From Verrucomicrobia bacterium LW23 (GTDB lineage: Bacteria > Verrucomicrobiota > Verrucomicrobiia > Methylacidiphilales > UBA1321), in contig QAZA01000010.1 of the NCBI GenBank assembly GCA_003054695.1, forward strand, positions 62,001 to 126,000: a stretch of DNA of 64,000 nucleotides, written 5' to 3'. Below the pieces are notes generated by a model. The model was not told the origin of the DNA and did not search any database. It saw only the letters and a list, made by a program, of their open reading frames with translations. Position 1 is the first letter of the stretch. Each line of letters starts with the position of its first letter. Shown here piece by piece: positions 48,710 to 62,336 of the stretch. A program made the translations under genes and the position numbers.

Positions 48710-51334
48710 ATGATCGACGAAATCGGACTCCGCGAAGGAGACATGCTGGGCAAGTACCAGATCTACGACGTCCTGGGCAGTGGTGCCATGGGCGTCGTCT
48801 ATCGGGCCCTGCACACCACGCTGCAAAGTTACGTCGCCGTTAAGGTACTGCCGCTTTCGCTCACGCAGTCCAATCCCGATCTCGCGGAGCGTTTCCTTCG
48901 CGAGGCGCAGATCATGGCGCGCATTCGCGATCCCAACGTCGTCAGCGTTATCGACGTGGACCAGGACCCGGCGTCCGGCCTGTGCTACATCGTGCTGGAG
49001 TACGTGGCCGGCGGCACGCTTGGCGATGCCATCGGCCGTGCCAAAAAGGGGGGGGAGGGCGGCAAAGCTATCGCGGAGAGCCACATCCTGCGCATTGGCG
49101 CGGATATTGCGCACGCCCTCATCGTCGCGAACGAGAACCACGTGGTCCATCGCGACATCAAACCCGACAACATCATGCTGGACGGCCGCGGCCGCGCCAA
49201 GCTGTCGGACCTGGGCCTGGCCAAAATCAGCAACGCCGGGGCGATGAGCCTGACGCAGAACAACGCGTTTATGGGCACGCCGGCCTACATGTCGCCGGAG
49301 CAGGCCTCCGACGCCAAGACGAGCGACACGCGCGACGACATCTACAGCCTGGGCGCGACGCTGTACCACGCCCTCACGCTCAACCTGCCGTACGACCTCG
49401 AGACGCACTATAATATCATCGCCGCGCTCATCAAAAAGCCGACGCCCAACCCACGCAGCCTGCGGCCGGATATCTCCGACGCGACGACCGCCGTGGTGAT
49501 GAAGATGATGGCCAAGACGCGCGAGGACCGCTACCAGACTGCCCAGGATCTGCTGCAGGATCTCGAGCTGGCCCACCACAACCTGCAGCATGCAGGCGGA
49601 ACGGCGCAAGGCCTTGCGGCAGAGCCTTTTCTGTACGGCAAGGGCGATCTCCCCGATATCTCCGCCGACCGCGCGCGCCGCTCGGGCATCGAGCTGCCGC
49701 CGCGCACCCCCGTCCCCCCGCCCACCTCGTCCATCACCCCCGTGGCGCCGCAGTCCACCGCCGCCGGTTTTGCGCCCGCCACCGTCAAGATGTCGAAGAC
49801 GGCGGCCGCGCGCCAGCCTGCCTCCCGCCAGTGCGCCGTGCTGTTCCTCGATATCGTCGGCTACTCCAAGCTCGATCTGGAGCCGCAGTATGCCGTCAAA
49901 CGGATCTTTAACGATTACCTGGACTACTCGCTGACCAAAGCGGCCGAGGAAAAAGGCATCCTGGAGTACATCACCGAGGGCGACAAACAGACGCGCGTTG
50001 ACGCAGATCAGCGCATTATCCTGGATACCGGCGACGGCGCGGCCGTCTGCTTTATGCAGGACCACGAGGAAGCGCTGATCGCCGCGCTGATCTTCCAGCG
50101 CTCCATCCTGGCGCTGTGCCACCAGTCCAACTACGACATCGCCGTGCGCCTGGGCATCCACTCCGGCCCGGTCAAGCTGATCGAAGACATCCACGGCAAG
50201 AAGAATCCGATCGGCAACGGCATCAACACCGCCCAGCGGATCATGAGCTTCTCCGCCGGCAACCAGCTCTGCATCTCCCGCAACTACTACGAGAATGTGG
50301 CCTGCGTGGCGGAGTACTACCGCAAATGCTGCCGCTACCTCGGCGCCCGCCTGGACAAGCACGAGATGGAGCACGTGCTGTACGAGTACCGCGACACCGA
50401 GCTGGAACCCTACCTGCCCGAGCCCCTGCCCGTGCTGGAGGAGAAGGCCAAGATCATCAAGCCGGCCACCCCCACGCCCAAGGCCCCCGAGGTGCTGGAT
50501 ATCGAGGCCGAACGGGTCCCCACCACGCTTTCCCTGCCCAATGCCGAGCAGCAGCAGCCTGGCACCGCCACGGAGATTTTCTCCGACTTCGCCAAATCGG
50601 TAGCGCCGGACCAGGCCTTTGCCCCATCCAGGCCGCCCAGCTCCATCCCCCCGGGTTGGAACCCTGAACTGCTGTCCACCCTGGAAAAGCAGCTGGCCAA
50701 GTATGTGGGCCCCGTGGCACGAGCGCTGGTCAAAAAGGCCGCGGCGAGCAACGCCACGCTTACTGGCCTGATTGAGGCGCTGGCGATGGAAATTACCAAG
50801 CCCGAGGACCGGCAGCGGTTTCAGCGCGATACCTCCCTGCCCAGCACCATCGCGCCGTCGGCGTCGGTCACCAGCCTCAATGCGCGGGGTGGACTCACCT
50901 CCCTTTCCGCCAGCCAGCAGCGCATTGTACTGCCTGGCGCGCCGTCCACCAGCGTGCCGCCGCAACCCAACCGCAGCCGGGTGGAGCTCCCGCTTGTTAA
51001 CGCACCTGCCGCCGCCCCCGCCCAGCCCACGTTTGTGGCGCCGCCCCGCCCGCCCGCGCCGCAACCTGCTCCGCAGCAAAGCATTGCGCCGGCGCCCGCC
51101 GAGCCCCAGCGCCCGGCCAGCAGCGTCATCCCCGCCACCCCCTCCTTTACGCAGGAGGAGCTGGAGATCGTCTCCGGCCGCCTGGCCAAGATCGTCGGCC
51201 CCATCGCCAAAGTCCTCGTCAAGCGCGCCTCCGCCCGCACCAACAGCATCGACGAGCTCATCGAAGCTCTCCTGCCGGAGATCCCCAACGAGCACGACCG
51301 GCAAAAGTTTGTGAGCAGCCTGTACCAGCAGTAA
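48710..51334 (+). CDS. Ser/Thr protein kinase fused to class III nucleotide cyclase
   Basis: 874 residues. The kinase at about 15-290 has GSGAMGVVYRA, Lys45 in VAVKVL, HRDIKPDN (Asp149), DLG in place of DFG (Asp167), and GTPAYMSPEQ. A Pro-rich linker follows. The class III cyclase at about 370-560 has metal Asp381 (LFLDIVGYSKL), Asp442 (DTGDGAAVCF) and the transition-state pair Asn506/Arg510 in GNGINTAQRI. The Lys that normally selects adenine at the -3 position of GD is Leu, so ATP versus GTP use is open. After a disordered stretch come two related helical repeats (about 655-705 and 815-872), each with LAKxVGPxAxxLVK. No membrane segment is seen. Confidence 0.93.
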   Translation: MIDEIGLREGDMLGKYQIYDVLGSGAMGVVYRALHTTLQSYVAVKVLPLSLTQSNPDLAERFLREAQIMARIRDPNVVSVIDVDQDPASGLCYIVLEYVAGGTLGDAIGRAKKGGEGGKAIAESHILRIGADIAHALIVANENHVVHRDIKPDNIMLDGRGRAKLSDLGLAKISNAGAMSLTQNNAFMGTPAYMSPEQASDAKTSDTRDDIYSLGATLYHALTLNLPYDLETHYNIIAALIKKPTPNPRSLRPDISDATTAVVMKMMAKTREDRYQTAQDLLQDLELAHHNLQHAGGTAQGLAAEPFLYGKGDLPDISADRARRSGIELPPRTPVPPPTSSITPVAPQSTAAGFAPATVKMSKTAAARQPASRQCAVLFLDIVGYSKLDLEPQYAVKRIFNDYLDYSLTKAAEEKGILEYITEGDKQTRVDADQRIILDTGDGAAVCFMQDHEEALIAALIFQRSILALCHQSNYDIAVRLGIHSGPVKLIEDIHGKKNPIGNGINTAQRIMSFSAGNQLCISRNYYENVACVAEYYRKCCRYLGARLDKHEMEHVLYEYRDTELEPYLPEPLPVLEEKAKIIKPATPTPKAPEVLDIEAERVPTTLSLPNAEQQQPGTATEIFSDFAKSVAPDQAFAPSRPPSSIPPGWNPELLSTLEKQLAKYVGPVARALVKKAAASNATLTGLIEALAMEITKPEDRQRFQRDTSLPSTIAPSASVTSLNARGGLTSLSASQQRIVLPGAPSTSVPPQPNRSRVELPLVNAPAAAPAQPTFVAPPRPPAPQPAPQQSIAPAPAEPQRPASSVIPATPSFTQEELEIVSGRLAKIVGPIAKVLVKRASARTNSIDELIEALLPEIPNEHDRQKFVSSLYQQ

Positions 51335-54370: not shown

Positions 54371-54679
54371 TCGTAACCTCCTGTCGTTCAGCCAAGATCG
54401 CGCCTTGGGGCCGGCTTATTACAAGCGGAGCTTGTTCGTGTGGCGGGATGCGACCCGGCTCTCGTCGCATCAAAAAAGCGCCGCAACAGGTCCGCAATCG
54501 TTTACACAGGATAACTGTCTTGCACTAAGGCGGTTAGCTATGTATTCGTACTGTCGGTTGCGCTTTGCTCCAGGCCAATTCTCGGAGAATCGTGGACTTT
54601 TTCCGCAACCCCGCTACTATTGAGAGATACAGCGCACCGGGTCTCTGCAACTTTCCTTCCGCCCGCGTGCTTTTCACTA
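54371..54679. promoter_or_regulatory. Divergent spacer
   Basis: Upstream of both the small secreted gene and the Lon-like gene. It includes a TTG-started frame (54620) leading into the latter, less likely than its ATG at 54680. Nothing else is seen. Confidence 0.3.
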
Positions 54680-57079
54680 ATGAGATCGCCCTCCCCTGCC
54701 CTGCTTTGCCCCTCGCAACCGCACCGGCCGCGCAGTTTTGCGGCCAGGGAGGCTTGTCGTCACGCTGCCCGCCTTTGCGCGCTTGCCGTAACTCTCTTTC
54801 TCGCAGCAGTTTGCGCAGTCTCGTCGCGTGCGCAGCAGCAGAATACGGAGCCTCCGCTGCTGATCAAGACCGAGAAGGCGATTGAGCAGCGCGTGCCGCT
54901 TCCCTTGTATGTATCGTCCCAGTCCAAGGCCGCCATCTCGCCGTTGCGCCTGCGGTGGGACTACGCCTCGGCCAGCAGCTCCATGGGCGACGACGTGCTG
55001 GTGTTTCGCTTTCCTGATACGCAGGAGGGCGCTCAGTTGAACGTCCTGAAATCCCAGCTGTGGATCTCCGCACTCAGCAGCGCCATTGTGTGGCAGGAGC
55101 CCTGGCGCGCCTCGCGCTGGACGGTTCGGGAGATTCCCGAGGTGGACGGCCCGGGTGTAGGTGTGGCGCTGAGCGTTGGCATGATCGCCACGGCGTCGGA
55201 TGTTGTGTTTCCCAAGGACACCGTCATCATCGGCTCTCTCAACCCCGATACGTCCCTCGGCCCGGTGAATGGTATGGCCTCGCGCCTGGACGCCGCCGCG
55301 GCCGCCGGGATGAAGCGCGTCGTTATCCCCAACCTGCAACGCTTTGAAAAGAATGCGGCCGGTGAGACCGTCAGCATCGAGAACTACGCCAAAACGCTGG
55401 GGCTGGAGATTATCTTTGCCTCCGACCTCCTCGAAGCGACCGAAAAGACGCTGCGCTGCAAGCTGCCCGCCCCGCCCAGCACCACCAGCGGCAACGGCTA
55501 CCGCGGCGCCTTGTGGGACTATCTGAACAACCAGTGCAGCAAGGAGATGAACAAGCTGCAGACGGTAGCCGGCACCTGGCAGCGCAACCTCGATCGCCTG
55601 GACAAAACCGGCGGCCCGGAGCTGAAAACGCTGTGGCGCGAGCTGTTTGACAATTACGACGAAGGCATGGACGCCTACCAGGCCGGCCTCCTTTACGTAA
55701 GCTGGGGCAAGCTGCAAATGGCCAACGCCAAGTGGAAGGCAGTGCAGGCGTGGCGCAATGCCAACCTCGACTTCAAGACCGTGGACGCCCGCGCAACGCA
55801 GCTGATTGCCCGCGTGCGCGAGCTGATGTACAAGCCGCCTGTCGACAACAACGAGCTGCACAGCGGCGTGTGCTTTGCGGAGACGCACGACTGGGGCTAC
55901 GCCATCAACGCCCGCCTCGAAGGCTCACAAATCTTTGCCCAGCAAGCCTTTCACCCCCGCAGCACCGCCACGGAGGCGCAGAAGGAGCTGGCCATTACCC
56001 GCATGTTTACGGCGGTGGAGGAGACCGAGTACCTGGTGCAAAGCTTTGAGGCGTACAAGGAGCTTTACCCGCTGGTACACAAGGACGACGTGGCCGTGTA
56101 TAACCGCGCGACCGTGTGGCTGCAGCAGCTCATCCCAACGCAAATAGGTGCGTCCGAACTGTTTGCGCAGGGGCTTAAGCATAACGCCAACCAGCTGGGC
56201 AATATGATTCTGCTGGACCCGCGCCTCTCCACCTACGCCCGCGTGATGGAGGAGATTCAGAAAGAGTGGGAGTCGCGCGTCAGCAACGCGCTCTCCATGC
56301 AGTCCAATACCAAGATCGACCATAACGTCGGCTGGCAACCGAGCGGCGCCTACGCTCGGCCGCGCTCCACCAACATGAACACGGCGCAGGGCCAGCTGGT
56401 GGCCGCGGCGGTGAAGCTGAGCGATACATCGCGCTGCCTGAAGTGGGTGAACGATTACTGCGAAGTCTCCGTGCTGGATCACAAGTACCTCAAGATGGGC
56501 GGCTATTTTGACTCCGCCCGGCAAGAGTGGGTCATCCCCCAGCAGGCCACCCTGCAGGCTATGACGCAGTACGCCGACGTTGCGGCGCGGCGCGGTATTG
56601 CGATGGCGGAGCTTATCGGCCTCAACACCAACATTTTAGAGCTTGTGTACGAGCGCGCCTCGTACCTGCGCAGCAGCCGTCGCATGGACGACAAACTGGA
56701 GGCGTTGCGGCAGTTTTGGCGCTGCGCCCTGCTGGGCAACATGTGCTGGCAGCTGGGCTACGTGCCGAAGGCCTCCGCCATGCCCGCAGGCCCACCCCCG
56801 CCCTCGCGCATTCCGCCTATCGACGCGCCCTTGCCGGAGACGACGCAGGCAGGCACGCAGCAGACGCAGCCCGGCGCAGGTCAGCTTACCTCAGCGCAAA
56901 AGCCGCTGCCGTCCTTCAAAAGCCAGGTGCAGGATGGCATACTGCTCGCTCCCGCGCAGCCGATTCCCCGCACGCCGGTGGAGGACGACATCGAGCCCGT
57001 GGTGGAGGAGAAAAGCAATGCGGCGGTGGAAAGCGCGCCTATGGAAACCGTTGTGCCCGTGCTGATGGAGAGCGAATAG
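54680..57079 (+). CDS. Exported Lon (S16)-like pseudoprotease
   Basis: 799 residues from the ATG at 54680. The signal-like segment at about 30-52 (RLCALAVTLFLAAVCAVSSRA) suggests export. Residues about 105-225 match the Lon proteolytic fold: DGPGVGVALSVGMIATASD, VIIGSLNPDTSLGPVNGM, and DAAAAAGMKRVVIPN. The catalytic Ser of DGPSAG is Gly159 and the Lys of GGLKEK is Arg202, 43 residues apart exactly as in E. coli Lon (679 and 722), so it should lack peptidase activity. The long remainder is helical with no recognised domain and ends Pro/Gln/Glu-rich. It lies 256 bp upstream of the PBP fusion on the same strand. Confidence 0.8.
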   Translation: MRSPSPALLCPSQPHRPRSFAAREACRHAARLCALAVTLFLAAVCAVSSRAQQQNTEPPLLIKTEKAIEQRVPLPLYVSSQSKAAISPLRLRWDYASASSSMGDDVLVFRFPDTQEGAQLNVLKSQLWISALSSAIVWQEPWRASRWTVREIPEVDGPGVGVALSVGMIATASDVVFPKDTVIIGSLNPDTSLGPVNGMASRLDAAAAAGMKRVVIPNLQRFEKNAAGETVSIENYAKTLGLEIIFASDLLEATEKTLRCKLPAPPSTTSGNGYRGALWDYLNNQCSKEMNKLQTVAGTWQRNLDRLDKTGGPELKTLWRELFDNYDEGMDAYQAGLLYVSWGKLQMANAKWKAVQAWRNANLDFKTVDARATQLIARVRELMYKPPVDNNELHSGVCFAETHDWGYAINARLEGSQIFAQQAFHPRSTATEAQKELAITRMFTAVEETEYLVQSFEAYKELYPLVHKDDVAVYNRATVWLQQLIPTQIGASELFAQGLKHNANQLGNMILLDPRLSTYARVMEEIQKEWESRVSNALSMQSNTKIDHNVGWQPSGAYARPRSTNMNTAQGQLVAAAVKLSDTSRCLKWVNDYCEVSVLDHKYLKMGGYFDSARQEWVIPQQATLQAMTQYADVAARRGIAMAELIGLNTNILELVYERASYLRSSRRMDDKLEALRQFWRCALLGNMCWQLGYVPKASAMPAGPPPPSRIPPIDAPLPETTQAGTQQTQPGAGQLTSAQKPLPSFKSQVQDGILLAPAQPIPRTPVEDDIEPVVEEKSNAAVESAPMETVVPVLMESE

Positions 57080-57335: not shown

Positions 57336-60300
57336 ATGCACGATCGGATGTCGACGCTCCCGCGAAAGAAACTCGCGCGGCAGCCTCGTGATCGTCACGA
57401 CCCGATAACGCCCCCCTCGCACAAGTCCCGCAAGCCTTCGCGTCTCTGGCAAACCATCCGGCATCTCATCATCCTGGCCGCATGGGGCACGGGCATCATC
57501 ACCGGCATCGTCGGCGCCATGGCGCTGATTGTCATCGACCGGTACGACAGGATCGCCGCCGAGTACAACATCTCCGCGCTCGACGACCTGCCCGTCACCA
57601 CGATGATGTACGACCGCTCCGGCGAGGAAATCGGCCGCATCTTTACGGAGGATCGCACCATCCTCACCCACGACCAGATTCCGCAGAAAATGCGCGATGC
57701 CGTTGTGGCTGTGGAAGATGAGCGCTTTTATTATCACCAGGGCATCGACTACATCGGCCTTGTCCGCGCGCTGGTGCGCAACCTTGCCTCCGGCCAGCTT
57801 CGCCAGGGCGGCTCCACCATCTCGCAGCAGCTGGCCAAGCACCTGATGAACAACTTCTCGCGTACGCTGGACCGTAAGCTCACCGAGTTTTTTGTGGCGC
57901 TGCGTATCGAGCAAAAGCTATCCAAGGATAAAATCCTGGATTACTACCTCAACCGCATTTACTTCGGCAAAGGCCACTTCGGCCTGGCCTCGGCGGCGCG
58001 CGGCTACTTCAACAAAAGTGCATCGGACCTGACGATTGGCGAGATGGCGATGCTGGCCGGCATCATCCGCTCCCCCAACTCCACCAGCCCGCGCCGCGCC
58101 CCGGAGAAAGCGCGCGACCGCCGCAACGTGGCCCTGGCCAAGATGCGCGAGCTCGGCTACATCACGCCCGAGGAGGAGCAGACGGCGCGCTCCACCAACA
58201 TCCGCATTTACCCGGAGAAACCACCCGGCGTGCGCAGCTACTATGCCAGCCTTGCGTTGAAGGAGCTGCTGCAGATTCTGCCCAGCACCGGCGGCGACGA
58301 CGAAACGAGCATACCGGCCGGCCTTAACATCGTCACCACCATCGACATGCGCATGCAGCGCGCCGCCCAGCAGGTGCTGGAGGAGCAGGCCAAAAAGATT
58401 GAGGACGACATTGCCAAGCTGCGCGAGGCGGTCGACTTCAAGGCCAATCCGCTGCAAGGCGCGTGCATCGTTGCGGACTCCAAGACAGGCGCCGTGCGCG
58501 TGCTGATCGGCGGCCGCAGCTTCATGGAAAGCCAGTTTGACCGCGCCACTCAGGCCCGGCGCGAGAACGGGGCGCTCATCTATCCGCTTCTGTTCCTCAA
58601 GGCGTTCCAGTCGCTCAATTTCAGCCCGGCGTCGATGATCAACGCCACCTATTTTAACCCCGACGACGTGCTGAGCGCGCAAGAGGCCGCCCTGGGCAAC
58701 CCGCAGCGGGATATCGGCACGCGCTTTATGACGCTGTACGACGCGACCGTCAGCGGCAACCAGCACGTCGCCATCCGCCTGGCGCTGCACATGGGGCTCA
58801 ACCCGTTTTTTGACTGGCTTCGTAACTCCGGCGTGGTAGCGGGCAACCTGGACACCCCCAAGCGCATCGATCTTTCCAACCTCACACTGTGGGAGATCTG
58901 CAACCTGTACCAGGTGTTTAACCACGACGGCGCGACCAAAAAGCTTCACCTTATCTCCTCTGTCACCAACCAAAAAGGCGAGGTTATTTACCAGGAAGAC
59001 CCCACCGCCGCGGAGAAAAGCTGGGCCAGCCCGTCGGACACGCAGGCCATGCAGCAAACGTTGCTGAGCGCCAGCGGCGAAGGCCAGGGCCGCCGGTTAA
59101 AGAAGGACTTCAACATTCCGGCGCCCGTGGCCGGCATGCCCGCGTACAGCACGGGCTACCGCGATGCCTATTACGTGGGCTACACGCCCTCGATGATCAG
59201 CGCCGTGTGGATGGGCTTTGACAGCTCCCGCGCCATCGGCAACAAAAAGATTGCCCGCGCCTCCGCCATCCCCCTGTGGGCCGGGATTATGGAGAAAGTG
59301 ATGATGATCGAGCCCAAGGGCGGCACTTTTGCCCCTCCCTCGGCCAAGGATCTCGTGAAGGTGAACCTCAACCGCAAAAAGGGCACCATCGAGGGCGTCG
59401 TGGGCTTTGTGCCCAAGCAGGATTGCATTGGTGTGTGGATGCGCAGCAACGCGCTGACCAGCCCGCAGAATTTCCAGGATACCGGCACCAGCAACTTTAC
59501 CATGATGGCCTCGCTGCAGACGCCCAGCATGGAGGACGACGACGAGACCGCAGACGTGGATACGGACGAAGAGGGCCCCAGCGTCCCCAAAGCCGCGGCA
59601 GTTATCCCGCGCATTGCCAAGTACCGGCTGCCGGCCATGCGGGGCAACATCATTACCAACGACGGCGAGCTGCTGGCCACCATGCGCCAGACCTACAACA
59701 TTGTGCTGCCGTGGCCGGGGCCGGATATCGCGCCGAGCGAAAGCACGGCCATCGCCTGGGCTCGCGCCAAGATCAACAAGGCCGCCAACTGGACGCGCAA
59801 GCCCATCACTATCCCGGACGACGAGCTGCAGTCGCTCTTTACGTTCAAACGCTTTCAGCCGCTGACGATCGCCGAAGATATCTCCCCCGAGCAGATTGAC
59901 GCGTTCCCGAACAGCCCGCTGGTGGGTGAGGGCTTTTTCCTCCAGGGCATTCCGCGCCGCGTGTACCCGCAAAGCACCATGGCCTCGCACGTGCTGGGCT
60001 ATTTACGCAAATCGCAGGGTGTAAGCCGTGGCGAGTACAAGGCGGGCGAGGTAATGTACGAGGACTTTAACGGGGGCGCGGGGCTCGAACAGGTGTATAA
60101 CAACGACCTCAAAGGCACCGACGGCCATGTAACGATTGCGACCACGCCCGAGGGCTACGTCGATCGCGTCATCGTCGACTCCGCCGCGCTGCCCGGCAAA
60201 ACGCTGCGCACCACCCTCAACCACAAGTTCCAGGCCGCGGCCGAGCTGCATATCGACAAGATACGCTCCGGCGCCATTGTGGTGGTGGACGTGCACTCCG

Positions 60301-61424
60301 GCGCCATCGTCGTCTCGGCCTCCAAGCCCAACTTTAACCCTAATGACTGGATCCCGTCCCTGCCGGAGGAGGTGTGGACAGCCCTCACCGCGCCTTCCTC
60401 CCCCGGGTCCGGCAAAAAGAATCCGCTGCGCAACAACGTCATCGCCCACCGCAACCCGCCGGGCTCCGTGTTCAAGACGTTTACCGTGCTGGCGGCCGCC
60501 TCCATCGGCAAGTTCGATCCCCGGCGCGTCGTCAACTGCCCCGGCTATTTTGACGTGGGCACCACGCACTACAACCTGCCCAAGGAGGTTGGCAACTACG
60601 CCTTTAAGGAGGCGTTCCGCTGGTCGATTAACACCTACTTCCTGGACATGGGTGTGAACCGCGCCGGCCGCGATGCGATGCTGGAGATGGCCCACACCTG
60701 GGGCTTTGGCCAAAAGACCGGCATCGACCTGCCCGGCGAGGTGCCCGGCATGTTCCCCACGCCCGAGTTCGTCCGCGCGCGCCACCAGCGCAACATGGGC
60801 GGCGGCGATATCGCCAACGCCTCCATCGGCCAGGGCGACGTGCTGGCCACCCCGCTGCAAATGGCCAACGCCATGGCCGCGCTTGCCAACGGTGGCGTTC
60901 TCTACAAACCGCGCATGGCCGCCTCTCTGGAGGACGCCAACGGCCGCCCCTTCCATGTCTTTCAGCCCGAGATCATCAGGCAGATCCCCATGCCGCCGCC
61001 CGACATCCAGGCGGCCATCAAGGAGGCGATGCAAACCGTCGCCCAGTCCGGTACCGCCAGCCTTGTCGGCAACACTGTCCCCCACCTTAAGGTGGCTTGT
61101 AAAACCGGTACGGCGCAGGTGGGCTCCAAAAAGAAGCCCCGCCAGATTGCCTGGCTGGGCGGCTACTTCCCCGCCGATAACCCGCAGTACGCCTTCTCCG
61201 TAATGGTGGAAGGTGACTTTGACCAGGACCTGCACGGTGGCTCCGACGCCGGCGGCCTGGCGGCCAAAGTTTTCTCCACCATGTTCCCCGCCCCCCAGGG
61301 CAGCCGCAAGCGCGCGCCCAAAAAGAAGGTCGTCGAGGAGCTGGACCCCGCCGGCGCTGATATCCCCGTCGCCCCGCCCGTTCGCCCCGCCCCCCGTCCC
61401 CGCACGGTACGCGAGACAGAGTAA
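57336..61424 (+). CDS. GT51 + dead class A transpeptidase + PBP2-like class B transpeptidase fusion
   Basis: 1362 residues. A single TM (about 41-65) is followed by a GT51 domain at about 95-290: VVAVEDERFYYHQGID (catalytic Glu127), GGSTISQQLAKHLMNN, YFGKGHFGLASAARGYF. A class A transpeptidase fold lies at about 325-660, but SxxK is A413-L-I-Y416 and KTG is M601-P-A603; only an SGN-like motif (473-475) remains. A linker (665-765) leads to a PBP2-type start YRLPAMRGNIITNDGELLA and dimerisation region, then an intact transpeptidase: SVFK (Ser1044, Lys1047), SIN (1097-1099), KTG (1256-1258). It is a membrane-bound wall synthase facing the periplasm. Confidence 0.93.
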   Translation: MHDRMSTLPRKKLARQPRDRHDPITPPSHKSRKPSRLWQTIRHLIILAAWGTGIITGIVGAMALIVIDRYDRIAAEYNISALDDLPVTTMMYDRSGEEIGRIFTEDRTILTHDQIPQKMRDAVVAVEDERFYYHQGIDYIGLVRALVRNLASGQLRQGGSTISQQLAKHLMNNFSRTLDRKLTEFFVALRIEQKLSKDKILDYYLNRIYFGKGHFGLASAARGYFNKSASDLTIGEMAMLAGIIRSPNSTSPRRAPEKARDRRNVALAKMRELGYITPEEEQTARSTNIRIYPEKPPGVRSYYASLALKELLQILPSTGGDDETSIPAGLNIVTTIDMRMQRAAQQVLEEQAKKIEDDIAKLREAVDFKANPLQGACIVADSKTGAVRVLIGGRSFMESQFDRATQARRENGALIYPLLFLKAFQSLNFSPASMINATYFNPDDVLSAQEAALGNPQRDIGTRFMTLYDATVSGNQHVAIRLALHMGLNPFFDWLRNSGVVAGNLDTPKRIDLSNLTLWEICNLYQVFNHDGATKKLHLISSVTNQKGEVIYQEDPTAAEKSWASPSDTQAMQQTLLSASGEGQGRRLKKDFNIPAPVAGMPAYSTGYRDAYYVGYTPSMISAVWMGFDSSRAIGNKKIARASAIPLWAGIMEKVMMIEPKGGTFAPPSAKDLVKVNLNRKKGTIEGVVGFVPKQDCIGVWMRSNALTSPQNFQDTGTSNFTMMASLQTPSMEDDDETADVDTDEEGPSVPKAAAVIPRIAKYRLPAMRGNIITNDGELLATMRQTYNIVLPWPGPDIAPSESTAIAWARAKINKAANWTRKPITIPDDELQSLFTFKRFQPLTIAEDISPEQIDAFPNSPLVGEGFFLQGIPRRVYPQSTMASHVLGYLRKSQGVSRGEYKAGEVMYEDFNGGAGLEQVYNNDLKGTDGHVTIATTPEGYVDRVIVDSAALPGKTLRTTLNHKFQAAAELHIDKIRSGAIVVVDVHSGAIVVSASKPNFNPNDWIPSLPEEVWTALTAPSSPGSGKKNPLRNNVIAHRNPPGSVFKTFTVLAAASIGKFDPRRVVNCPGYFDVGTTHYNLPKEVGNYAFKEAFRWSINTYFLDMGVNRAGRDAMLEMAHTWGFGQKTGIDLPGEVPGMFPTPEFVRARHQRNMGGGDIANASIGQGDVLATPLQMANAMAALANGGVLYKPRMAASLEDANGRPFHVFQPEIIRQIPMPPPDIQAAIKEAMQTVAQSGTASLVGNTVPHLKVACKTGTAQVGSKKKPRQIAWLGGYFPADNPQYAFSVMVEGDFDQDLHGGSDAGGLAAKVFSTMFPAPQGSRKRAPKKKVVEELDPAGADIPVAPPVRPAPRPRTVRETE

Positions 61425-61508: not shown

Positions 61509-62336
61509 ATGGCCGACAACCAGGATACCCCGCCCAGCGACAGCGCACCGCGCCCTCCCGCGCTTACGCCCGCGACTGTGCGCACGCCGTCCCCCGCGGC
61601 AGAGCCCGGCATCAGCGCGGAGTCCCACGACATCATCATCCTCCACCTCATCTACGGCATGCTTACGGGGTGGATCCCCGTGCCGATTGTGGATGGCCTG
61701 GCTGCTGACTACCTGCGGCGCCGCATGGTGTACCAGCTGGCCGCCGGCCATGGGGAAAAGCTCAGCTCCGAGCAAGTCCACATCCTTACCGAGGAGCGCG
61801 GCAGCTGCCTGGGCTGCGTGGGCGGCTGCCTTTTCGCTCTCATCAGCATCCCGTTCCGCCTCGTTACCCTGCTTGCACGTGCGCTGCAAGTGCTTCGCAT
61901 CAAACGTTTTGTGGAGTCCGCAGGGCGCGCCTACCACACGGCCCGGCTCATCGAGTACGCGCTGCGCACCAAAAAACTGCACCCGGCCGGGGCGCCCGCC
62001 GCCCTTCGCGTGCGCGCCGCCATGGATCGGGTCGTCGCCACCACCAACACCACGCCCGTCAACAAAGCGCTCCTTAGCATCCTGCAGGGCAACAAGGACA
62101 TGCTGCGCACGGCAGCCGCCTACTTCAACCGCGCCCTGCGCGCTCTGCCCTTCCGCAAACGCGACGCCGATCACGTGGGCGACGCCCTGCAGCAGGCCGA
62201 GGCGCAAACCGCCACGTCCGTCGGCGGCATCGTCTGGCCCCTGCGCTCCGCCCTGGATGCCATTCCCCCGCAACACTTTACGGAGATGGAAGCCGCGCTG
62301 GACGCCGAACTGGCGCGAGACGACAAGCCCCTGTGA
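61509..62336 (+). CDS. Hypothetical membrane-associated protein, 275 aa
   Basis: I chose the ATG at 61509 (MADNQDTPPS); a TTG at 61476 would add 11 residues. A Pro/Ser/Ala N-terminal tail is followed by a hydrophobic segment (IIILHLIYGMLTGWIPVPIVDGLA), a Cys/Gly patch (GSCLGCVGGCLFALISIPF), another hydrophobic helix and a helical, Arg/Ala-rich C-terminus. The family is unknown. It lies 84 bp after the PBP fusion gene and 72 bp before dcd, all rightward, so the three may be transcribed together. Confidence 0.65.
   Translation: MADNQDTPPSDSAPRPPALTPATVRTPSPAAEPGISAESHDIIILHLIYGMLTGWIPVPIVDGLAADYLRRRMVYQLAAGHGEKLSSEQVHILTEERGSCLGCVGGCLFALISIPFRLVTLLARALQVLRIKRFVESAGRAYHTARLIEYALRTKKLHPAGAPAALRVRAAMDRVVATTNTTPVNKALLSILQGNKDMLRTAAAYFNRALRALPFRKRDADHVGDALQQAEAQTATSVGGIVWPLRSALDAIPPQHFTEMEAALDAELARDDKPL

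Follow-up and report, generated by a model that had tools for sequence, protein, structure and literature searches.

Wall synthases are taught as two sets: in class A penicillin-binding proteins (PBPs) a GT51 glycosyltransferase works with its own transpeptidase, and in the other set a SEDS polymerase is served by a class B transpeptidase. We here describe a gene of Verrucomicrobia bacterium LW23 (Verrucomicrobiota, Methylacidiphilales) in which the two sets are crossed. It lies in a stretch of 64,000 nucleotides, the window, which covers positions 62,001 to 126,000 of contig QAZA01000010.1 (assembly GCA_003054695.1, forward strand). Its product of 1362 residues, the fusion, unites in one chain a GT51 domain, a transpeptidase of the class A fold that has lost its catalytic motifs (the pseudo-transpeptidase) and a class B enzyme of the PBP2/MrdA type with all motifs in place.

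The gene and its product

The frame starts with ATG and, according to the open reading frame list of the window, has no internal stop; a clear Shine-Dalgarno sequence was not found by eye in the bases just upstream. Pfam recognises Transgly (whole-protein E 1.6e-62), PBP_dimer (9.4e-23) and two stretches of Transpeptidase, the best being the C-terminal one (2.1e-67). A FTSW_RODA_SPOVE match is absent from the protein in a scan up to E = 1. The positions of the features are compiled in Table 1.

For each of the 17 homologous rows that extend to the N-terminus, hydropathy scanning predicts exactly one membrane helix, which is the N-terminal one. Ordinary class B proteins begin with such a helix, as seen in 21 of 21 separate ones examined, whereas no fusion row scanned by Kyte-Doolittle has one ahead of its class B half. 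This half is thus tied to the membrane only via the N-terminal helix of the chain. The stretch between the two transpeptidases (alignment columns of residues 705 to 763) comprises 52–60 residues in 19 fusion rows.

Could the gene be an artefact, i.e., a frameshift, a chimeric contig or two genes joined? The assembly indeed carries it twice, on the overlapping contigs C9 and C10. The ends of these contigs match at dovetail positions with an overlap of about 149.5 kb; the comparison covered two end pieces of 3,000 bases (100% and 99.9% identity) and 3,525 bases at the gene, which are identical. Because of this dovetail and the identical gene stretch we count one fusion locus, and two copies in this genome are ruled out as far as the two end pieces tell. 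The redundant C9/C10 assembly (L067–L070) can double gene counts there. In a search of 40 genomes, ten, the own one included, have one open frame of more than 1,250 residues with identical domain order. The full-length fusions of the nine relatives are 41–46% identical to the window protein; over residues 371–960 the identity is 36–41%. An uninterrupted frame that recurs in many independent genomes, some of them recorded by different studies, rules out the artefact, for which we see practically no chance.

A previous reading of the letters alone (hereafter the sequence-only reading) had claimed a continuous frame of 1362 residues, named an assembly join or frameshift as what would overturn it, and proposed a search for the domain order GT51, transpeptidase, PBP dimer, transpeptidase. 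The frame is continuous, and the order is the one found in the ten genomes. Its residue numbers, from Glu127 to Lys1256-Gly1258, are all right.

Table 1. Positions of the fusion gene, its parts and its neighbours (plain numbers: window; L: loci of relatives)
Feature	Position	Strand	Basis
Whole fusion gene, 1362 aa	57336..61424	+	ORF, Pfam scan, homologue search
Predicted N-terminal membrane helix, aa about 41-68	57456..57539	+	Kyte-Doolittle scan
GT51 glycosyltransferase, aa 96-270, with Glu127 and Glu184	57621..58145	+	Pfam, alignment
Pseudo-transpeptidase, class A fold, aa 373-665, catalytic motifs gone	58452..59330	+	NCBIfam, structure matches, alignment
Pseudo-transpeptidase SxxK column, Ala413-Leu-Ile-Tyr416	58572..58583	+	alignment
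Pseudo-transpeptidase KTG column, Met601-Pro-Ala603	59136..59144	+	alignment
Low-confidence (disordered) linker, aa about 709-754	59460..59597	+	pLDDT <50 in model
PBP_dimer/pedestal of class B half, aa 765-942	59628..60161	+	Pfam
Class B (PBP2/MrdA-like) transpeptidase, aa 979-1307	60270..61256	+	Pfam, NCBIfam, structure matches
Class B SxxK, Ser1044-Val-Phe-Lys1047	60465..60476	+	alignment
Class B SxN, Ser1097-Ile-Asn1099	60624..60632	+	alignment
Class B KTG, Lys1256-Thr-Gly1258	61101..61109	+	alignment
Upstream neighbour, 819 aa, weak Lon/S16-like signal	54620..57079	+	Pfam, locus comparison
Membrane hybrid histidine kinase	L193:9346-11943	+	downstream of fusion
Membrane hybrid histidine kinase	L196:899-3121	-	downstream of fusion
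Membrane hybrid histidine kinases	L072:12249-13265; L192:4070-5083; L197:665-3265		downstream of fusion

The class A half and its transpeptidase without motifs

The N-terminal half finds PBP_1a_fam as its best NCBIfam model (2e-137). The middle region alone (residues 371–755) still reaches 1.1e-39 with this model, and residues 371–735 match the sequence of a solved PBP1A (4oon) at 4.9e-22. In the latter alignment N-G-A-L-I-Y stands opposite P-G-S-S-F-K, and A-G-M-P-A-Y opposite A-G-K-T-G-T.

Motifs were followed in an alignment of 21 rows, i.e., 20 fusion rows, whole or cut, and an orphan C-half from genome G018. The catalytic glutamates of GT51, Glu127 and Glu184, are kept in all 18 rows that cover them. 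In the pseudo-transpeptidase the SxxK serine column reads alanine in 13, serine in 4 and tyrosine in 1 of the 18 covering rows; the lysine column reads glutamine in 16, tyrosine in the window protein and serine in G376, hence lysine in none. At the first position of KTG methionine is found in 18 and tyrosine in 1 of 19 covering rows, again never lysine; threonine follows in 5 and glycine at the third position in 17 of these 19. SxN is lost as well: in the 18 rows of the N-half its serine column is occupied by G, A, S or E, and none of them shows serine plus asparagine in register. Other residues of the former active site did not drift: Arg409 is conserved in 18 of 18 and Asn411 in 17 of 18. 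Since the SxxK lysine is gone from all 18 covering copies and four keep the serine, the lysine was probably lost first.

As a control we took 16 class A proteins of the window's order, nine from fusion carriers or G017 and seven from genomes without the fusion. In the shared alignment 15 of them keep both G-S-x-x-K and KTG. The sole exception, G000_A50, stems from the own genome: a GT51 protein of 769 residues on contig C50 (L204:348-2654, minus strand), whose SxxK column reads G-A-M-L-Y-P and in whose C-terminal part no Pfam transpeptidase match was found. Its transpeptidase is dead or absent, which makes it, after the fusion, the second such GT51 protein of this genome.

The pseudo-transpeptidase is not free to change. 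In five codon pairs the ratio of nonsynonymous to synonymous substitution rates (omega) is 0.104–0.141 for the pseudo-transpeptidase, values that are rough because its synonymous divergence (dS) amounts to 0.57–1.67, exceeds 1 in four of the five pairs and is in several near saturation; the class B transpeptidase shows 0.040–0.136 in the same pairs. A sixth pair, L193/L197, is unusable since L197 lacks the domain. Mean pairwise identity over 16 rows is 0.62 for GT51, 0.54 for the class B transpeptidase, 0.48 for the pedestal and 0.47 for the pseudo-transpeptidase. Expressed relative to GT51 in ten genome pairs, the identity of the pseudo-transpeptidase is 0.62–0.92, that of active class A transpeptidases 0.72–0.95. 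By these comparisons the pseudo-transpeptidase is under purifying selection, with a somewhat weaker constraint, which points to a folded domain with a selected function. A decaying relic is ruled out by the low omega of 0.10–0.14 and by a relative identity that overlaps the range of the active class A domains.

The same data could be read in favour of a transpeptidase that still works with non-canonical residues: the fold is kept, the constraint is strong, and G449, G453a, G468a and G468b retain the serine. The window protein, however, lacks the serine, the SxxK lysine and the entire KTG, and the SxxK lysine is missing throughout. Residual activity of this kind we consider very improbable.

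The class B half

The C-terminal half has been spared. Ser1044, Lys1047, Ser1097, Lys1256 and Gly1258 are kept in 19 of 19 rows, the G018 orphan included. Asn1099 is found in 18 of 19 (aspartate in L014), as is Thr1257 (serine in L196), so that K[TS]G is complete in all 19. The best NCBIfam model is pbp2_mrdA (1.9e-118), and the nearest solved sequences are those of MrdA.

AlphaFold2 models were built of two overlapping pieces. The model of residues 60–735 (18 alignment rows) reached a mean predicted local distance difference test score (pLDDT) of 78 and a predicted template modelling score (pTM) of 0.65; Foldseek places class A PBPs on top, with E. coli PBP1b (5hlb) at 3.2e-30 and a TM-score of 0.65 by query length. 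The model of residues 325–1325 (20 rows; mean pLDDT 82, pTM 0.59) contains two transpeptidase folds, and its residues 385–430, i.e., 709–754 of the protein, fall below a pLDDT of 50. For the class B part Foldseek lists PBP2 structures first (6tii, 2.1e-36), with other class B enzymes close behind.

The sequence-only reading had taken the class A transpeptidase to be apparently silenced, had seen the GT51 domain covalently tied to a PBP2-type module and had advised structure prediction for both transpeptidases. The motif loss recurs in every homologue that covers the sites, which speaks for silencing; the best model and the tree (see below) bear out the PBP2 type, apart from FtsI; and both folds are predicted, with a putatively disordered linker between them.

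Distribution and origin

Homologues were sought with a profile of residues 371–960 (A1, ten rows). Within the window's order 14 of 62 genomes match at 1e-60, and 12 of them span the junction (G000–G005 and G007–G012, G000 being the own genome). The match of G011 starts inside the profiled region at a contig end. Of the two other matches, G017 has a fusion truncated behind the N-half, where the contig ends, and G018 has a C-half only. Larger groups were sampled evenly, with at most three candidates scored per genome. In the class draw 20 of 384 genomes match at 1e-55; 17 span the junction, the 12 of the order included. The five further carriers, G376, G448, G449, G453 and G468, belong to other families (f25, f93, f88, f95), and the remaining three matches are G017, G018 and, with its class A part alone, G006. 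In the phylum draw 3 of 387 genomes match at 1e-62 (G000, G376, G018). In the orders of G376, G468 and G449, matches occur in 1 of 1, 3 of 5 and 1 of 6 genomes, respectively. The design of three parts has been conserved in several groups of Verrucomicrobiota.

A peptide-pattern scan of genome contigs with two patterns yielded at least 80 loci. Among the matches listed, seven extend over the whole region and one more covers residues 99–588 of the query; the other 72 listed are partial matches within the first 341 of 590 residues. As the scan came without the known carriers G448, G449, G453, G468 and G376, it is silent on other phyla. G453 and G468 each harbour two diverged fusion copies (L193, L194, L195, L197), one of those of G453 being cut by a contig end.

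Maximum-likelihood trees with midpoint roots were calculated for both halves; a selection from a larger set of hits was included, 16 proteins of class A and 21 of class B. The fusion N-halves, 18 of 34 rows, lie on one side of a branch supported at 100/99. The C-halves (19 of 40 rows, the orphan of G018 among them) are likewise set off by a branch, at 100/100. They group with MrdA-like proteins, and ten FtsI-like proteins stand apart at 100/100; the join to the MrdA clade itself is weaker (89/63). In the C tree G016_B_rodAadj is a long row of unsure placement. In the N tree G000_A50, FUS_G376 and G000_A24 are flagged as long rows, with the warning that long branches meet, and G000_A50, G000_A56 and FUS_G376 as unusual in composition. 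Cut rows set the limits of the sampling: L018, which has a run of unknown residues and a cut N-half, is left out of alignments A2/A3 and, by a minimum length of 400 residues, of the N-half tree; the same minimum removes L017 and L019, both truncated at contig ends, from the C-half tree; L197 and L020 have no N-half.

One relative carries the C-half alone. In G018 it is an open frame of 643 residues (L071, C1:1284053-1285714), sister to the window's C-half and inside the fusion clade (97/90). Because it nests there, it reads as a fragment of a former fusion whose N-half was lost later, and an unfused ancestor is ruled out. The sequence-only reading had regarded unfused modules in relatives as evidence against a genuine fusion; such a module does exist, once, yet its place in the tree takes away that meaning. 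By eye the N-terminus of the orphan resembles a signal peptide, and a hydropathy scan found no membrane helix in it.

The ordinary wall-synthesis genes

SEDS proteins were found in all 20 genomes searched, fusion carriers included. The own genome has two, on contigs C50 and C10. The former is separated by about 7 kb from a class B protein that falls into the FtsI clade, and is for this reason taken as FtsW; by exclusion, the one on C10 is taken as RodA. Beside the C10 gene lies what we take to be an RNase G/E-like protein. A separate PBP2-like protein with intact motifs is encoded on C45, preceded by a membrane protein that we presume to be MreD. Motifs are also kept by G000_A25, a class A PBP of the own genome that has the full set, and by two further GT51 proteins there, A24 and A56. 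Ten of the 12 carriers of the order that span the junction (G001, G002, G003, G004, G005, G007, G008, G009, G010, G012) have a PBP2-like match no more than about 1.5 kb away from a SEDS match; in G000 the two are on different contigs, and in G011, which is 65% complete, one SEDS protein was found. G016 has two pairs of class B PBP and SEDS genes on one contig (C38:104500-109500 and C38:277500-282000; L215 and L214); one of these class B proteins is the long row of the tree.

Both rodA and a separate mrdA, which the sequence-only reading wanted looked for, are thus there. Since separate SEDS, PBP2-like and FtsI-like genes are present, the fusion is, by gene content, an extra synthase beside the RodA-PBP2, FtsW-FtsI and class A systems. 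A replacement of RodA-PBP2 by the fusion is ruled out by the same genes.

What the fusion may do

It is reasonably probable, in our opinion, that the fusion works as a bifunctional peptidoglycan synthase: the strands made by GT51 are cross-linked by the class B domain, and the pseudo-transpeptidase acts as spacer or docking module. The proposal starts from the architecture, its conservation, the loss of one set of motifs and retention of the other, the single clade of each half, the purifying selection and the genes of the ordinary systems, which we take as established by sequence comparison. In detail, GT51, anchored by the single N-terminal helix, would polymerise lipid II. The non-catalytic class A transpeptidase would serve as a folded spacer or docking site, and the class B pedestal and transpeptidase, on a flexible linker, would cross-link the growing product. 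The enzyme would work beside the ordinary systems, possibly on an envelope signal. Of this scheme we infer the enzymatic activities, the direct hand-over of strands, the spacer role and the conditional use.

Several observations weigh against it. Both halves remain below the curated cut-offs of their best models, the N-half with 459.2 bits versus 508.75 for PBP_1a_fam and the C-half with 396.6 bits versus 455 for pbp2_mrdA. VIA-align of the class B half gives PBP2 (6tix) a Z of 48.9 over 504 residues at 3.8 Å, from which the scores of other class B-type enzymes differ by no more than 1. The models cover overlapping pieces of the chain, and the arrangement of domains in them is not trustworthy. 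The loss of motifs is also incomplete in places: of KTG only the lysine is wholly lost, the T-G pair surviving in 5 of 19; the SxxK serine is retained in the four copies named above; and the window's own pseudo-transpeptidase contains a literal S-G-N, one residue off the SxN register. Finally, the pseudo-transpeptidase has the highest omega of the four domains in four of five pairs, and in 6 of 10 genome pairs its relative identity falls short of the value for the active class A domain, all four pairs that involve the window lying at 0.62–0.70.

Alternatively, the two activities might be uncoupled: GT51 would feed other enzymes, the class B half would cross-link strands made by RodA or FtsW, and the fusion would merely fix stoichiometry or location. 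SEDS proteins occur in every genome searched. The class B half also keeps the PBP_dimer pedestal, reported as the contact part of RodA-PBP2 in PMC6207328, and the 52–60 residues between the transpeptidases would permit independent movement. Yet the class B half lacks a membrane helix such as the ordinary class B proteins possess; 10 of the 12 carriers of the order already own a PBP2-like gene close to a SEDS gene; and the fusion has been retained over several families with one split seen. Uncoupled activities are therefore unlikely, if worth keeping in mind, and we return to the coupled synthase as the preferred reading.

The gene neighbourhood

The 819-residue protein encoded upstream of the fusion gives a Lon_C match of 0.00063, which is below the cut-off. 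As judged by eye, the window copy presumably differs from Lon at the positions of the catalytic serine and lysine. A Lon-like protein lies directly upstream of the fusion in seven loci (window, G012, G004, G002, G017, G468a and G448). No relative of it was found around the fusions of G001, G003, G005, G007, G009 and G010 (18–20 kb each). The same holds for G008, over the 4.4 kb that precede its fusion, and for G468b. For this tally the contigs of G449, G453, G376 and G011 begin or end too close to the fusion. A membrane kinase follows the fusion directly in five loci (G012, G449, G468a, G448, G453b). The two kinases scanned have sCache_3, PAS, HisKA and receiver domains; HATPase is clear in one and below the cut-off in the other. 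In the window an unrelated protein of 286 residues occupies the kinase position, and in G002, in G004 and in the six loci of 18–20 kb no kinase turned up immediately behind the fusion. In G468 one fusion copy has both the Lon-like and the kinase neighbour and the other copy has neither. Farther upstream in the window (48710–51334) an 874-residue protein shows, by eye, a Ser/Thr kinase-like and then a cyclase-like region.

Such company might suggest that the fusion is mainly a regulator or sensor, its pseudo-transpeptidase binding muropeptides or partners and working with the Cache-PAS hybrid kinase and the Lon-like protein. The five kinase and seven Lon-like neighbours, the window's own among the latter, would fit, as would the conserved Arg409 and Asn411 in the pseudo-active site. 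A pure regulator, however, would not need the conserved catalytic residues of GT51 and of the class B domain; in the window, G002 and G004 the gene has no kinase next to it; and in one genus the loci of six carriers showed neither of the two neighbours. A mainly regulatory role is quite improbable.

A bolder version of the synthase proposal may be mentioned, tentatively and as somewhat unlikely in its entirety. The fusion could represent a third mode of building peptidoglycan: a SEDS-free, covalent GT51-class B synthase of single origin in Verrucomicrobiia, with a structural or regulatory pseudo-transpeptidase in its centre, which in some lineages forms an operon with the Cache-type hybrid kinase and the Lon-like protein and is switched by an envelope signal.

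Comparison with known systems

The N-half equals the class A enzymes PBP1a and PBP1b in domain order and fold; it differs in that its transpeptidase motifs are lost and a whole class B enzyme is appended. The C-half resembles PBP2/MrdA in having a PBP_dimer pedestal and a transpeptidase with all motifs. Unlike PBP2/MrdA, it has no membrane helix of its own, is attached to GT51 and scores below the mrdA cut-off.

Polymerase and class B cross-linker in one polypeptide are not unheard of. Fusions of SEDS proteins with class B PBPs (RodA-PBP2, SpoVE-SpoVD) occur naturally and have been engineered, but their polymerase is a SEDS protein and not GT51. Single-frame SEDS-PBP examples are mentioned in PMC10449877. 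For RodA-PBP2, communication between polymerase and pedestal is described in PMC6207328, and by analogy the fusion could mirror it.

A functional parallel would be the couple PBP2/PBP2a of methicillin-resistant Staphylococcus aureus (MRSA). There, too, GT51 stands beside an inactive class A transpeptidase and serves a class B one, as the fusion would by analogy. The differences are obvious: in MRSA two proteins are involved and the inactivation is due to the drug; the fusion is covalent, its inactivation results from loss of residues, and the bacteria are unrelated. According to PMC7617827, the class B enzyme PBP2a depends on the transglycosylase of the class A enzyme PBP2. The fusion might be a permanent version of this division of labour.

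A survey of class A PBP, class B PBP and SEDS genes includes bacteria of the Planctomycetes, Verrucomicrobia and Chlamydiae (PVC) (PMC8406291); in its main text the words “fusion” and “fused” were not found. No description of this enzyme design turned up in the literature searched, in which subscription journals are mostly outside coverage. Within that coverage the sequence-only reading, which knew of no such enzyme, still holds, and the chain of GT51, pseudo-transpeptidase and class B enzyme suggests a synthase layout that had not been described there.

If the proposal is right, evolution has crossed the two sets of synthases: the cross-linker of class A has been stripped of its motifs, and its place would have been taken by one of class B in the same chain. 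Whether strands can go directly from a GT51 polymerase to a class B enzyme could be tested on this natural protein, and the answer would also matter for understanding the cooperation of PBP2a and PBP2 in MRSA.

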